Below, in pieces: positions 522 through 38,115 of a stretch of DNA of 58,221 nucleotides (the stretch's first letter is position 1; each line of letters opens with the position of its first letter). Position numbers and translations under genes: made by a program. A model generated the notes under the pieces. It was not told where the DNA came from, made no database searches, and worked only from the letters and a program-made list of their open reading frames with translations. Source of the DNA: Chitinophagales bacterium (GTDB lineage: Bacteria; Bacteroidota; Bacteroidia; Chitinophagales; JADJOU01); assembly GCA_016787225.1 (NCBI GenBank), contig JAEUUY010000031.1, positions 1 through 58,221 on the forward strand, given 5' to 3'.

Positions 522-600
522 AAAAAAGGCGACGATTGCTCGCCACCTTAGATGTTTACACAACGGAATAATCCTTATTGTGAATTGCTTTAAAATTGTA
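522..600 (-). ncRNA. tracrRNA of the type II-C CRISPR system
   Basis: Read on the minus strand, this starts with an anti-repeat (578-600) that can pair with the 5' part of the CRISPR repeat read on the same minus strand (GTTGTGAATTGC...), with one base missing in the A/T run. A hairpin (CACAA...TTGTG) follows, then a GC-rich stem GGCGA/TCGCC (540-544/528-532) and a run of six T, a standard intrinsic terminator. A Bacteroidetes -7 box TATATTTG lies just upstream on the minus strand (604-611). The layout anti-repeat, nexus-like hairpin, terminator is that of type II-C tracrRNAs. It is transcribed divergently from cas9. The exact 5' end is inferred. Confidence 0.88.
528..544 (-). terminator. Intrinsic terminator of tracrRNA
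   Basis: Minus-strand stem GGCGA, loop of 7 bases, TCGCC, followed by TTTTTT (522-527). It is the only strong GC-rich hairpin in the region and fixes the transcription direction of the tracrRNA. Confidence 0.85.
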
Positions 601-603
601 ATG

Positions 604-611
604 CAAATATA
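604..611 (-). promoter_or_regulatory. Likely tracrRNA -7 promoter element
   Basis: Minus-strand TATATTTG fits the Bacteroidota -7 consensus TAnnTTTG and ends 3 to 4 bases before the anti-repeat, so transcription would start at or inside the anti-repeat. No clear TTG is seen about 19 bases upstream, so the -33 element is weak. Confidence 0.6.
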
Positions 612-725: not shown

Positions 726-3700
726 ATGAACAATACAATTTTAGGTCTAGACCTAGGCACAAACTCAATAGGGTGGGCATTAATAGAAAAAGAAAAGCAA
801 CAAATCATTGGACTAGGGAGTAGGATTATTCCTATGTCACAAGATGTTCTAGGTAAATTCGACAGTGGAATATCTATTTCACAAACAGCAGAAAGAACAG
901 GCTATAGAGGTGTCAGGAGATTAAGAGAGCGACATCTGCTAAGACGAGAGAGATTACATAGAGTCTTAAATATTCTAGACTTCCTACCGATTTTTTATAA
1001 AAATCAAATAGACTTTGACCAGCGATACGGTCAATTTAAAATAAACTCAGAACCTAAGCTAGCCTACAATGAAAACAATCAGTTTATCTTTCAAAACTCC
1101 TTTAGCGAGATGGTTGAAGATTTTAGAAAAGCGCAGCCCAATTTATTCTATACAAAAGAAAATGGCAAAGAAACCCTTATACCCTATGATTGGACAATCT
1201 ATTATCTGCGAAAAAAAGCCCTAAGCCATAAAATAGAAAAAGAAGAACTCGCATGGCTATTACTAAATTTTAATCAAAAACGTGGATACTATCAGCTAAG
1301 GGGCGAAGATGAGGAAGTAGTTCCAAATAAGAAAGTTGAGTTTCATTCTTTATTGGTGACTGAAGTTATTGCAGATGAACCTCAAAAAGGAAAATCAGAA
1401 TTATGGTATAATATTGTTTTGGAAAATGGCTGGATATATAGACGTGCTAGTAAAATTGAGTTGTTTGATTGGAAGGGTAAAATCAAGGAATTTGTAGTGA
1501 CCACAGACTTAAATGATGATGGTTCGGAAAAAATGGATAAAGATGGTAAGGTCAAGAGAAGTTTTAGAGCTCCAGCTGAGACGGATTGGACACTTATGAA
1601 AACAAAAACTGAGCAAACCATAGACAAATCAGGAAAAACTGTTGGACAATACATCTACGATACTCTTCTACAGAATCCATCACAGAAAATTAATGGAAAA
1701 CTGGTACGTGTAATTGAACGAAAATTCTACAAAGATGAACTGGAACAAATATTAAAAACACAAAAAAAATTTCACACAGAATTACAAGATGAAAATCTAT
1801 ACAAATTGTGTTTGGAAGAATTATATGAATTTAATGAATCACACAGAAACAATATTGCCAAAAGGGACTTTGTCTATTTGTTTCTGAATGATATTATCTT
1901 CTATCAAAGACCATTAAAGAGCAAGAAATCTTTGATTAGCGATTGTAAATTCGAAAGTAGAAGATATAGTAAAGATGGTAAAGAACAAAATGAACCGCTA
2001 AAATGTATCGCTAAATCACATCCATTATTTCAAGAATTTAGACTATGGCAATGGATTAAAAACTTGCAAATATTTGAAATAGAAAATGACGATAATCCTA
2101 TAACTGATAAGATTATTTCCTCCGAAGAAGACGTTGCAAATCTCTTTGATTTTTTAAACAATCGAAAAGAAATCTCACAAGAAGCCTTACTCAAATACCT
2201 CCTAGAACCCTTAAAACTAAAAGCCAAGGAACTAAAAACAGAGATATCCAAGTACAGATGGAATTATGTGCAAGATAAAGAATATCCTTGCAATGAGACT
2301 AGGGCGATGATTTTAATCAGATTGGCTAAGTGCGCTATTAATCCCAATGAATTTCTCACCAAAGAAATTGAAGAAAGTTTGTGGCATATACTATATTCAG
2401 TAAATGATAAAGATGAAATCAAATCTGCATTGGAAAAATTTGCCGCCAAATATTCATTAGGTGATGATTTTGTAGAGCAGTTTAAAAAATTCCCTCCTTT
2501 TAAAAATGAATATGGAAGCTATTCTGCAAAAGCTATCAAAAAGTTATTACCATTGATGAGGGTCGGTAAACACTGGAGTGAAGCAGATATTCATCCAGAG
2601 ACAAAAAATAGAATTGAAAAAATACTATCCGCAGAATATGATGAAACTATTAGAAATAAAGTTAGAGATAAAGCTATTGATTTAACGGATATAACTAAAT
2701 TCAAAGGATTACCATTGTGGCTGGTCAGCTATATTGTCTACGATAGACATGCGGAAGAAATCAACCTTGAAAAATGGAAATCACCAGCCGATATCGAAAC
2801 ATATTTAAAAAGCTTCAAACAACATTCCTTAAGAAATCCTATCGTAGAGCAGGTAATAATGGAAACGCTCCGAGTAGTCAAAGATTTATGGATTTACTAC
2901 GGAAATGGTATTGAGAACTTTATAGATGAAATACACTTAGAGCTAGGCAGAGAGATGAAGAACCCTGCCGATAAACGAAAGAAAATAACGGAACAAACGA
3001 CCGCCAATGAAAACACTAACCTTCGAATAAAAGCCCTATTGGCAGAAATGCTCAATGATGCGAAAATAGAAAATGTAAGACCACATTCTCCCATGCAGCT
3101 AGAAATACTAAAAATCTATGAAGATGGAGTATTAAATTCTGGTATAGAGATAGAAGATGATATTCTCAAAATAAGCAAGATGGCTCAGCCGAGTAAAACG
3201 GACTTGTTTCGATATAAGCTATGGCTAGAACAGAAATATCGCTCACCCTATACAGGTGCGGTCATCCCTCTAAGTAAATTATTTACCCCTGCCTATGAAA
3301 TAGAGCACATTATACCCCAAAGTAGATATTTCGATGACTCCTTCTCTAATAAGGTAATCTGTGAAAGTGAAGTGAATAAAGACAAGGGCAATCTATTGGC
3401 TTTTGAATATATCAACCAAAATAGCGGAAAAAAAATTGAACTTAGTAGCGGAAAATATATCTCACTTTTCACCATAGACCAATACGAAAATTTCATCAAA
3501 ACAAGTTATGCAAAAAACTATGGCAAGGGTAAAAAACTAATGTTACTGGATATACCAGAAAAAATGATAGAACGGCAGATGAATGACACGAGGTATATCA
3601 GCAAAGAAGTAAAAAATCTATTATCACGAATAGTAAGACAAGATAAAAACGATGAAGGTACTACTGCCAACAATTTATTGAGCACCAATGGTCAAATCAC

Positions 3701-5080
3701 TTCAATTCTGAGACATGACTGGGGACTAAACGATATATGGAATGACTTAATAACTCCTAGATTCGAGCGATTAAATGAACTCACCCAGTCCAATCATTAT
3801 GGACAGATAAATCCAAATACTGGAAAATTTCTGCCGAGTGTGCCTCTCGATGCGCAAAAGGGCTTTAACAAAAAGAGAATCGACCATAGGCATCACGCAC
3901 TGGATGCATTAGTCATAGCCTGCGCTACGAGAAATCATATCAATTATTTGAATAATCAGAATGCCCTAGACAAAGATAAAACAAGAGGTCAAAAAACCAG
4001 AGAAGATCTGAAAAGAGTACTATGTGAGAAAAAATTTAATGCCGATGCTGAAAAAAATTATAGTTGGATTTTCAAACAACCGTGGGATACTTTTGCATTA
4101 GATGCTAAAAACAAACTGGAAACTACAGTCATTAGCTTTAAACAAAATCTGCGTGTCATCAATAAAACAGTCAATAAATACCAGCGGTGGGAAAATGTCA
4201 ATGGAAAACTGAAAAAAAATATAGCTACCCAATCCAAAGGAGACAGCTGGGCTATTAGGAAACCATTGCACAAAGATACTGTTTCAGGAAAGGTAAATTT
4301 AAAAGGAGTAAAAGTATCTAGAGATAAAATGATAACGGCTACAAGAAAGACCTTAGACACTAGTTTTACCATAAAAGTAATTGAAAAAATAACGGATACA
4401 GGCATCCAATTGATTTTGAAAAACTATTTAGCAGCGAAGGGAGGTGTCCCTGAAATAGCGTTCACTCCTGAAAGTATAGAAGAAATGAATGCAAATATTT
4501 CCTTATACAATAATGGAAAAGCGCACAAACCTATTGTTAAACTGAGAATATGGGAAGAAGGCAGCAAATTTGCTATAGGTCATACAGGAAATAAAGTTCA
4601 TAAATATGTAGAAGGTGCAAAAGGAACGAATCTATATTTCGCCATATATAGAGATGACAAAGGTAAAAGAAGCTATGAGACTATCCCTTTCAACGAAGTC
4701 CTAGAAAGCCAGAAACAAAGTGCTGCTCTGAAACAAAAGCCCCAGTCTGTGCCCGCAAAAAATGCCAAAGGAGACCCTCTCCTATTCAGTCTATCTCCTA
4801 ATGACCTCGTCTATGTGCCGAGTGCTGAAGAAATAGACAATCCTTCTATGGTCGATTTTTCAAATCTTACCAAAGAGCAAGTGAATAGAATTTATAAATG
4901 TGTGAGTTTCTCTGGATTTCAATGTTTTTTTGTAAAGGGAGAGGTTGCAACATCTGTAGTTAATAAATTAGAATATTCTTCGCTAAACAAAATGGAAAAT
5001 TCAATTGAAGGTATTCAAATTAAATCATGCTGCTGGAAATTGGACGTAGATAGACTAGGTAATATTATAAAAGTTGTCCA

Positions 5081-5084
<4 letters not shown>
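726..5084 (+). CDS. cas9: CRISPR-associated endonuclease Cas9, type II-C
   Basis: RNA-guided DNA endonuclease of 1452 aa. RuvC-I motif LGLDLGTNSIGWAL carries the catalytic Asp at residue 9. An arginine-rich bridge helix follows at about 55-80 (RGVRRLRERHLLRRERLHR). RuvC-II HLELGRE has Glu739, the HNH core EIEHIIPQS has His861 with Asn residues downstream (SNKVI), and RuvC-III HRHHALDALV has His1057 and Asp1060. All catalytic residues are present, so it should be active. The length and the C-terminal PAM-interacting region match the large II-C Cas9 proteins of Bacteroidota. The stop overlaps the cas1 start (ATGA), and no csn2 or cas4 is present, which supports subtype II-C. The PAM cannot be read from the sequence. 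Confidence 0.98.
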
Positions 5085-6315
<1,231 letters not shown>

Positions 6316-6371
6316 TGCCAAATTTTTGGCTAAAATCTTCAACAACAAGCCCTTAAATCAGGGCTGTTGTT
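6316..6371. promoter_or_regulatory. Array-proximal hairpins between cas2 and the first repeat (candidate leader or array-end terminator)
   Basis: Two inverted repeats fill the gap: GCCAAA-N2-TTTGGC (about 6317-6330) and AACAAC-A-AGCCCT-TAAATC-AGGGCT-GTTGTT (6341-6371). The last arm is the first six bases of repeat 1, so the hairpin spans the junction. Near-consensus repeats sit at this end, which is usual for the leader side. Because crRNAs appear to be made on the minus strand, the same hairpins could also stop transcription leaving the array. The sequence does not decide between these roles. Confidence 0.55.
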
Positions 6372-8245
6372 AAAGATACAATTTTAAAAGCAATTCACAA
6401 CTATTGGTCTAATAGTTCAAATCGACTTAATGTTGTTAAAGATACAATTTTAAAAGCAATTCACAACGGCAAAAAGTGCTATGGAAACGCACGGGAAGTT
6501 GTTAAAGATACAATTTTAAAAGCAATTCACAACAATACTGAGTTTCTTTGGCTCCTCTATCTTGTTGTTAAAGATACAATTTTAAAAGCAATTCACAACG
6601 GAACCAAATTGACTATAGATAATAATGAAGTTGTTAAAGATACAATTTTAAAAGCAATTCACAACATCGGTGCCATTCTCTACCATGTGAGTAAAGTTGT
6701 TAAAGATACAATTTTAAAAGCAATTCACAACGAGACAGTGGACACAGCAAGTAACTGGTATGTTGTTAAAGATACAATTTTAAAAGCAATTCACAACAAT
6801 CCCTGTTATCAGCCAATTGGCATTAAGGTTGTTAAAGATACAATTTTAAAAGCAATTCACAACGCTATTTCCTTATCGCCCAAATAATGATAAGTTGTTA
6901 AAGATACAATTTTAAAAGCAATTCACAACGACACTCTCTTACGTGTTTAGTAATTGGGTGTTGTTAAAGATACAATTTTAAAAGCAATTCACAACTAGAG
7001 CAAACAAATAATGACGTTGCAGATGGTTGTTAAAGATACAATTTTAAAAGCAATTCACAACGGAATAGTTTTTGCACTTAAAAAATTCGTAGTTGTTAAA
7101 GATACAATTTTAAAAGCAATTCACAACAGTGTCCTCTCTTTTCTCTGATTAGCTGTCGTTGTTAAAGATACAATTTTAAAAGCAATTCACAACGGCTTAA
7201 AAACTATAGCGACAATACGATAGGTTGTTAAAGATACAATTTTAAAAGCAATTCACAACGAAGCCTTCCACGATTAGCGAGTCTATGCGTTGTTAAAGAT
7301 ACAATTTTAAAAGCAATTCACAACAAATTCCATACGCTCTCTACAAACCGAGCGGTTGTTAAAGATTCAATTTTAAAAGCAATTCACAACATAAATTCTA
7401 CGGCAAACTCCCTGAGCATGTTGTTAAAGATACAATTTTAAAAGCAATTCACAACATTCTAAACTACTGAGTTCGTTTCCTTTGAGTTGTTAAAGATACA
7501 ATTTTAAAAGCAATTCACAACTCAGCATCAACAATTAGACGAATCAAATGTGTTGTTAAAGATACAATTTTAAAAGCAATTCACAACCCATGCATGGTGA
7601 TAAATTTTAGGCAAAGTGTTGTTAAAGATACAATTTTAAAAGCAATTCACAACCGCTGACTACTATGCCCGTATCGTAGAGAAGTTGTTAAAGATACAAT
7701 TTTAAAAGCAATTCACAACATGCCTGATGGAACTTCGTATTCAAACTGGCTGTCGAAGATACAATTTTAAAAGCAATTCACAACCAACTACATGCTACAT
7801 CCTCTATTATAGAGCTGTCGAAGATACAATTTTAAAAGCAATTCACAACTATTAAGGCTATTTTCATTTGAGTAGTTCAGCTGTCGAAGATACAATTTTA
7901 AAAAGCAATTCACAACTCTAAAGTTCCGTTAGAAACCCCTATTTTTGCTGTCGAAGATACAATTTTAAAAGCAATTCACAACGATAGCATTGAACCACTT
8001 GTCCCGTTTAGTGCTTTCGAAGATACAATTTTAAAAGCAATTCACAACATATTGCTCTTGCTATGCTATCTGGAGTATGCTGTCTAAGATACAATTTTAA
8101 AAGCAATTCACAACGATACAGTTATAGACCTCGAAATTTCAATCGCTGTCGAAGATACAATTTTAAAAGCAATTCACAACTTTTAGCCACTGCAACCACT
8201 TATTATCATGTTGTTAAAGATACAATTTTAAAAGCAATTCACAAC
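6366..8245 (-). CRISPR. Type II-C CRISPR array, 29 repeats and 28 spacers
   Basis: The 36-bp repeat begins GTTGTTAAAGATACAATTTT and ends AGCAATTCACAAC on the plus strand; spacers are 29-30 bp. Repeats 1-21 (6366-7719) and 29 (8210-8245) are consensus apart from one change in repeat 16 (7355-7390, GATTCAA for GATACAA). Repeats 22-28 (7749-8180) start GCTGTCGAAG instead; repeat 24 has an extra A (37 bp), repeat 26 reads GCTTTCGAAG and repeat 27 GCTGTCTAAG. The minus strand is assigned because the tracrRNA anti-repeat pairs with the minus-strand repeat and each minus-strand repeat holds a TTG-N19-TATCTTTA promoter. Spacers look unrelated to each other; their targets cannot be named without a search. 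Confidence 0.98.
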
Positions 8246-8281
8246 TTAGTTCTCATTTGATGAAAGTAAAAAGCTGTCGAA
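8246..8281. other. Array distal edge: last spacer-like segment and possible repeat remnant
   Basis: After repeat 29 comes a 27-bp segment, then GCTGTCGAA (8273-8281), the first nine bases of the variant repeat, which runs directly into the 21-bp minisatellite. It may be a truncated repeat cut by the minisatellite, or a diverged minisatellite unit that resembles the repeat by chance, since minisatellite units contain AGCTAGATGAAAGTTCG. Confidence 0.5.
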
Positions 8282-8772
8282 AGTTCGTTCGAGCTAGATG
8301 AAAGTTCGTTGAGAAAGGATGAATTTTCGTTGAAGCTAGTTAAAAGTTCATTCGAGCCAGATGTATATTCGTTCGAGCATAATGAAAGTTCGTTGAGACA
8401 AGATGAATCTTTGTTGAAGCTAGTTAAAAGTTCATTCGAGTCAGATGTATATTCGTTCGAGCATGATGAAAGTTCGTTGAGACAAGATGAATCCTCGTTG
8501 ATGCTAGTTAAAAGTTCATTCGAGCCAGATGTATATTCGTTCGAGCATGATGAAAGTTCGTTGAGACAAGATGAATCTTCGTTGAAGCTAGTTAAGAATT
8601 CATTCGAGCCAGATGTATATTCGTTCGAGCTAGATGAAAGTTCGTTGAGACAAGATGAATCTTTGTTGAAGCTAGTTAAGAGTTCGTTGAGACAAGATGA
8701 ATTTTCGTTGAAGCTAGTTAAGAATTCATTCGAGCTAGATGAATCTTTGTTCGAGCTAGTGGGTGGACAATA
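8282..8772 (+). repeat. 21-bp minisatellite with 84-bp higher-order period
   Basis: About 23 tandem units of 21 bp, such as AGTTCGTTGAGACAAGATGA(A) and units with TTGAAGCTAGTTAAA. Four unit types recur in order, giving an 84-bp period repeated several times with few changes. Because 21 is a multiple of three, one frame stays open (8309-8773, 154 aa) and encodes heptads such as SSLRQDE, SSFEPDV, YSFEHDE and SLLKLVK. I see no signal peptide or other domain. A related 21-bp minisatellite is at 27640-28021. I regard it as a repeat that is open by construction; an expressed heptad protein cannot be excluded. Confidence 0.85.
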
Positions 8773-8773
8773 A

Positions 8774-9303
8774 TAGCCATTTGAACGAATATATTTCCAA
8801 AAAGAGCGTCAAAACTCATTACTCAGCTTCAGCTAAGCCTAGCTTTAGTACTAAATCTTATCAAACCTATTGCATAACTCCTCTGCGCTCTCTGCGCCTC
8901 TGCGGTTAAACCCAGCCTATCCACTTAAAACTTTCGTGTCCTTCGTGATACCATTGTGTACTTTGTGGTAAAACCTCTCACACCGCAGGTGTCTATGATT
9001 CGTGCTAATCTGTGTCATTCGTGGCTACCACCGCATTCATTTAATTACCCTCTGCGCTCTCTGCGCCTCTGCGGTTAAAACCCACATATCCACTTAAAAC
9101 CTTCGTGTCCTTTGTGATACCATTGTGTACTTTGTGGTAAAGCCGACACACCGCAGGTGTCCGTGATTCGTGCTAATCTGTGTCATTCGTGGCTACCACC
9201 TCATTTATTTAATTACCCTCCGTGAACCTCTGTGTCTTCTCCGTGCGCCTCCGTGTCCAACTACCTGCAAGCGTAAAACTAGCAAATCGTACTAATCTAT
9301 ACC
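8774..9303. repeat. 169-bp tandem duplication built from dispersed TGCG/TTTGTG motifs
   Basis: Bases 8881-9049 and 9050-9218 are two nearly identical copies with a few substitutions. They contain motifs such as CTCTGCGCTCTCTGCGCCTC and CACTTAAAAC..TTCGTGTCC, followed by further variants (CTCCGTGAACCTCTGTGTC) to about 9262. No coding frame is evident. Related short motifs occur at 21906-21955, 31037-31160 and 49190-49240, so this is a dispersed repeat family of the genome. It separates the minisatellite from the convergent mnmE gene. Confidence 0.75.
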
Positions 9304-38085: not shown

Positions 38086-38115
38086 TTGTAAACAAAAAAT
38101 AAAGTATTATCTTTG
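38086..38115 (+). promoter_or_regulatory. Promoter of the rplU-rpmA operon
   Basis: TTG (38086-38088), a 19-base spacer and TATCTTTG (38108-38115) match the Bacteroidota promoter consensus. The rplU start follows 27 bases later. The element serves as an internal reference for the promoter seen inside the CRISPR repeats. Confidence 0.75.

Follow-up and report, generated by a model that had tools for sequence, protein, structure and literature searches.

We found that the CRISPR array in the window (the whole 58,221-nt stretch of DNA analysed, a single contig of a 2.96-Mb genome of the order Chitinophagales, Bacteroidota) probably owes its transcription, on the minus strand and in the direction of cas2, to weak primary-sigma promoters that lie inside its repeats. 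We put the probability of this reading at roughly two in three, with promoter activity, start sites and processing all deduced from sequence. Repeat-borne promoters are already known in type II-C systems; what appears to be new is a Bacteroidota version built around a -7 box, which the window carries in a slightly imperfect form.

The locus is a type II-C CRISPR-Cas9 system, consisting of cas9, cas1 and cas2 only, without adjoining csn2 or cas4, on a contig that begins 725 bp before cas9 (Table 1). Its crRNA strand is the minus strand, read towards cas2, as judged from two sequence features: an antirepeat at 578-600 that matches positions 2-25 of the window repeat (minus-strand sequence GTTGTGAATTGCTTTTAAAATTGTATCTTTAACAAC), and the orientation of the predicted tracrRNA gene. 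Both agree with an earlier note on this DNA, which had described the array as inverted relative to cas9-cas1-cas2 and transcribed towards cas2. An Rfam search gave no hit, and the best match between the window spacers and phages had E = 0.6, so that these matches offered no PAM-based test of the strand.

Table 1. Positions in the window of the CRISPR-Cas features and of the promoter used for comparison.
Feature	Position	Strand	Basis or remark
cas9 (1452 aa)	726..5084	+	TIGR01865
cas1 (type II)	5081..5980	+	TIGR03639
cas2	5977..6315	+	TIGR01573
CRISPR array (29 repeats, each 36 nt; 28 spacers, 29-31 nt)	6366..8245	-	orientation from antirepeat; reads from 8245 towards cas2
Predicted tracrRNA (antirepeat 578-600, intrinsic terminator 526-549)	526..600	-	fold z -4.3, terminator, antirepeat
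tracrRNA -7 box TATATTTG, 3 nt before antirepeat	604..611	-	sequence
-7 box TATCTTTA of 5'-most full repeat (repeat positions 24-31)	8215..8222	-	start predicted at ~8209-8210 from published rule and tracrRNA box-to-antirepeat gap
Candidate -33 element TTG (repeat positions 2-4), with 19 nt between it and box	8242..8244	-	sequence; not specific
-7 box TATCTTTA of last (leader-side) repeat, facing leader	6371..6378	-	sequence
Seven variant repeats (repeats 2-8) near old end, box TATCTTCG (6) or TATCTTAG (1)	7749..8180	-	sequence
Repeat 14, box altered to AATCTTTA, predicted dead	7360..7367	-	sequence
Remnant of older repeat end, CTTTCGACAGC, 27 nt upstream of first full repeat	8273..8283	-	by eye; resembles variant-repeat ends
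17-bp hairpin of last repeat 3' end and inverted copy in leader (6337-6346)	6336..6376	-	fold z -7.55
Comparison promoter before rplU, TTG-N19-TATCTTTG	38086..38115	+	sequence

Read on the minus strand, the 36-nt repeat has TTG at positions 2-4 and TATCTTTA at positions 24-31, separated by 19 nt. These features and the array coordinates are as the earlier note gave them, and the promoter to which it compared them, before rplU, is an exact instance of the TTG-N19-box arrangement (TTGTAAACAAAAAATAAAGTATTATCTTTG). Its statement that each repeat contains the motif was too broad: TTG-N19-TATCTTTA, of the form TTG-N19-TAnnTTTR, is exact in 21 of the 29 repeats, while the remaining eight carry variant boxes (Table 1), one of repeats 2-8 having a 1-nt insertion as well. 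The description of the box as Bacteroidota-type stands insofar as it is the box of the host phylum at the spacing seen in tracrRNA promoters, but its eighth base is A where the consensus has G. The main window repeat thus matches five of the six consensus positions of the -7 box in the Bacteroidota primary-sigma promoter (TTTG/TTG ... TAnnTTTG); many of its relatives match all six. Upstream of genes in 413 kb of this genome, TAnnTTTG was found 125 times in sense and 69 times in antisense orientation (4.4 times the coding level), whereas TAnnTTTA had no sense bias (75 sense vs. 82 antisense; 1.5 times the coding level). A sigma-70 scan (51 found vs. 35 in shuffles) was set aside as it models the wrong promoter type for Bacteroidota.

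We scored boxes with a matrix trained only on 67 tracrRNA boxes. Because TATCTTTA falls at the 21st percentile of these boxes, we describe the window promoters as weak. One could then suppose that the class does use repeat promoters but that the window box (TATCTTTA, decaying to TATCTTCG) lacks the strength to serve as one, the array being transcribed from outside or nearly silent. The A at the eighth base, the missing sense enrichment of TAnnTTTA and the eight variant repeats all speak for this account. We nevertheless consider it improbable, given that 28 of the 29 repeats reach the cut-off score of 6.5, that no box with such a score was found on the minus strand in 8246-8790 upstream of the array, and that TAnnTTTA recurs in other lineages (L053, L090 and L241).

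The tracrRNA genes of the class provide a yardstick for promoters inside repeats. TAnnTTTG lies no more than 30 nt upstream of the antirepeat in 44 of 80 class loci, compared with 2 on the opposite strand of the same short region. The gap between box and antirepeat is most often 4 nt, and TTG peaks at N18-20 upstream of the box (37 instances), with no such peak for the GTT control. Given that the Bacteroidota -7 box spans -12 to -5 (PMC9723704) and that the gap is usually 4 nt, class tracrRNAs are predicted to start at the first antirepeat base. The distance from TTG to the box is the same in repeats as in tracrRNA promoters, and the published rule would place +1 of the window units at the last repeat or first spacer base, in keeping with the start at the repeat/spacer border that the earlier note had proposed.

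To place the window repeat among its relatives, we sampled 80 type II Cas1 loci from the class and 80 named loci, which together yielded 123 oriented repeats. Exact TAnnTTTG was present in 35 of the 99 repeats that are less than 90% identical, nearly always as TATCTTTG and mostly 18-21 nt after TTG, and by our own count about 17 families have a comparable box. Among the 40 repeats less than 80% identical, 7 had the exact box at a TTG spacing of 17-24, as against 0.3-0.4 in shuffles (maximum 3), and the opposite strand of the same repeats had none. The density of TAnnTTTG was 4.5 per kb in repeats and 0.32 per kb in spacers (a difference of about 14-fold), and it was found in none of 23 non-type-II repeats of the same class. 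Boxes scoring at least as high as TATCTTTA occurred on the crRNA strand of 50 of 114 distinct Bacteroidota II-C repeats and on the opposite strand of none. Taken against shuffles, spacers, the opposite strand and other CRISPR types, the box in class repeats is clearly non-random. A chance origin, in which AT-rich repeats simply yield TAnnTTTR, would be hard to dismiss for the window repeat by itself, where we estimate the match as only modestly improbable (about 1%, or 1 in 70), but the same class-wide comparisons make it very improbable indeed.

The comparison with related II-C repeats, which the earlier note had suggested as a check, bore out the box and its strand; it also showed that about half of the class repeats lack a good box, with none in Sphingobacteriales or Flavobacterium columnare-type repeats. 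Repeats from Chitinophagaceae carry TAnCTTAG at N22-24 from TTG, one base away from TAnnTTTG (L174, L176, L177, L181, L183 and L185). In L194 and L229 the tracrRNA box and the repeat box share the ending TTAG.

Pairing with the tracrRNA mostly ends at repeat positions 21-26 in the class, and the box sits at or just past that end. As the box begins where pairing ends, pairing alone does not explain its conservation. It may instead be conserved for some other job at the DNA level (e.g., recognition of the repeat by Cas1-Cas2), in which case its likeness to a promoter would be secondary and transcription would come from outside. Consistent with this, the nn of the box is nearly always TC in repeats and free in tracrRNA boxes, which is tighter than a promoter needs, and CTTTGA beside the pairing end persists in Sphingobacteriales, where a good box fails to form. 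However, the box differs among lineages that share type II Cas1, its distance from TTG is that of tracrRNA promoters, other phyla have a -10-like hexamer elsewhere in the repeat instead, and the 5' flanks of class arrays are not enriched for the sense promoters that outside transcription would use. We therefore regard a DNA-level job as an unlikely explanation. A test of whether arrays without a box compensate with an upstream promoter gave a weak result (p = 0.053), and there were too few variants for within-array substitution rates.

The comparison with other phyla is based on only seven type II repeats (four further loci yielded no array), which came from Bacillota, Fusobacteriota, Alpha- and Betaproteobacteria, Bdellovibrionota and one proteobacterial-looking contig, and which were oriented by their 5' GTTG-like end and the position of the array after cas2, not by tracrRNA. 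On the crRNA strand, positions 31-36 of all seven are occupied exactly by a TAnnnT hexamer (TATAAT, TACAAT or weaker forms); three of the hexamers agree with TATAAT at no more than 3-4 positions. TAnnTTTG is absent from all seven repeats. With TAnnTTTG in Bacteroidota and TAnnnT at 31-36 elsewhere, the repeat seems, from these sequences, to carry a promoter box suited to its host. The same control bears on TTG, which the earlier note had treated as an element of the promoter: since GTTG opens five of the seven repeats, TTG at positions 2-4 is not evidence on its own. The proteobacterial-looking contig (L108; 6.4 kb) belongs to a Bacteroidota genome and holds a II-C locus that is GC-rich and Neisseria-like, its repeat ending in TACAAT; the contig is probably a contaminant.

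In the class, 106 of 111 arrays run opposite to cas1, and where repeats are degenerate they are found at the crRNA-strand 5' end (40 arrays) and seldom at the other (2 arrays), which indicates that arrays grow at the 3' end of transcription. In the window, too, the variant old repeats are at the end far from cas2, and new spacers would accordingly be expected to enter at the 3' (cas2) end. In 29 class arrays all that is left of the 5'-most repeat is its 3' half, as against 2 the other way round. We rejected this pattern as proof of selection on the promoter: the truncated repeats keep the box, but a correctly spaced TTG is no commoner in them than chance predicts (3 of 27 vs. 3.65 expected), and half-kept oldest repeats are also found in non-type-II arrays, so that they lend the promoter no specific support. 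Changes of this sort had, moreover, been described before (Feussner 2025, PMC12080349).

The old end of the window array has some further features. A canonical repeat (8210-8245) stands outside the block of seven variant repeats, with the remnant, whose end is of the variant kind, further out; this layout suggests recombination or conversion among old repeats. Directly beyond the array, at 8284-8770, are 21-nt tandem repeats that are open as a 154-aa frame and contain plus-strand TATATTCG boxes, one per 84 nt.

At the opposite end, 69 of 110 leaders have an intrinsic terminator on the crRNA strand past the last repeat, mostly at a distance of 80-100 nt; the corresponding figures are 5% for random windows and 5 of 69 for 5' flanks. 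We found no terminator inside the window array, whose last repeat is instead predicted to pair with its short leader in the 17-bp hairpin, the probable end of array transcripts. Given that nothing terminates between units, we expect nested transcripts with common 3' ends. This runs counter to the suggestion in the earlier note that every crRNA could be made without a long precursor, as does Campylobacter jejuni, where II-C crRNAs start from a promoter in each repeat (by dRNA-seq) and yet RNase III is needed and intermediates of ~103 nt are formed (PMC3656092); the suggestion holds only for crRNA 5' ends. Class leaders also carry an inverted copy of the last ~10 nt of the repeat (at least 8 of 10 positions in 46 of 107 leaders vs. 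9.2 when loci exchange repeat ends by permutation; e.g., L213, L059, L243 and L232). It often lies at a distance of 57-64 nt, between an A-run and an intrinsic terminator that follows directly. This copy, of which we found no description, could be an integrase site or a transcript-end structure.

In the model that we propose, the two halves of a repeat would serve different spacers: the 5' half (positions 2-25) would serve the preceding spacer by pairing with the tracrRNA, while the TAnnTTT(R)-type -7 box in the 3' half (24-31) would serve the following one by starting RNA at the repeat/spacer border. The tracrRNA would be made from its own TAnnTTTG promoter, with a predicted start at the first antirepeat bases. 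Array transcripts would probably run on through later units and stop at the leader hairpin, and would still need 3' cutting by RNase III or a similar enzyme. With spacers added on the cas2 side, where transcription ends, every new spacer would lie downstream of a repeat promoter.

The proposed arrangement resembles those of C. jejuni and Neisseria meningitidis (for the latter, repeat-borne promoters are cited in PMC7038990 and PMC5006608) in having cas9-cas1-cas2, an array opposite to cas, a promoter in the 3' part of the repeat and a start near the spacer. It differs in that these species use a sigma-70-type -10 box, whereas the Bacteroidota element is a TAnnTTTG-type -7 box at another repeat position, recognised here from sequence alone. 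The II-C repeat of Clostridium cellulolyticum likewise has an extended -10-like end in an array opposite to cas, but belongs to another phylum and to the sigma-70 type (PMC7038990). Repeat promoters are treated as general in a study of more than 650 II-C systems, which also reported that mutations of the oldest repeat fall mostly within its first 15 nt and that this repeat may need to keep its promoter (Feussner 2025, PMC12080349).

Closer relatives are found within the class. For F. columnare II-C, TTG in the repeat was proposed as a promoter and the RNA-seq evidence consists of eight reads, which run within the array towards the leader (Hoikkala 2021, PMC8092290), and the TTG proposal was repeated for F. 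psychrophilum (Chen 2023, PMC10309648). Both share with the window a TTG in the repeat and transcription towards the variable end; however, only TTG was proposed there, and the F. columnare-type repeat (L064) has no TAnnTTTG, whereas the window locus and many relatives have the -7 box. The authors who described Riemerella anatipestifer II-C, which is of the same class but has 47-nt repeats and the antirepeat TGAAAGCAATTCACAA, reported no potential promoter in its repeats (PMC5006608). We found no report of TAnnTTTG in Bacteroidota II-C repeats in the open-access papers that we searched.

Many type II-C Cas9 proteins come from Bacteroidota, yet in the papers that we read the start of their guide RNAs is documented only by the eight reads and TTG. 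With a -7 box named and a start predicted, guide RNA initiation becomes testable, the published negative for Riemerella is called into question, and the crRNA strand and end become clear to tool builders. The regularity of the tracrRNA promoters (TTG-N18-20-TAnnTTTG-N4-antirepeat) means that they could guide the search for tracrRNA genes in uncultured Bacteroidota and serve to calibrate promoter models there. More broadly, our findings suggest that repeats track the sigma factor of their host. We tentatively propose, at somewhat less than even odds, that II-C repeats are modular, combining a conserved tracrRNA-pairing half with a 3' half whose box is read by the host primary sigma (TAnnTTTG at 23-31 in Bacteroidota, TAnnnT at 31-36 elsewhere). 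If this is true, a II-C system could move to another phylum only once the promoters of the tracrRNA gene and of each repeat had been retuned, which would amount to a barrier to transfer at the level of transcription.
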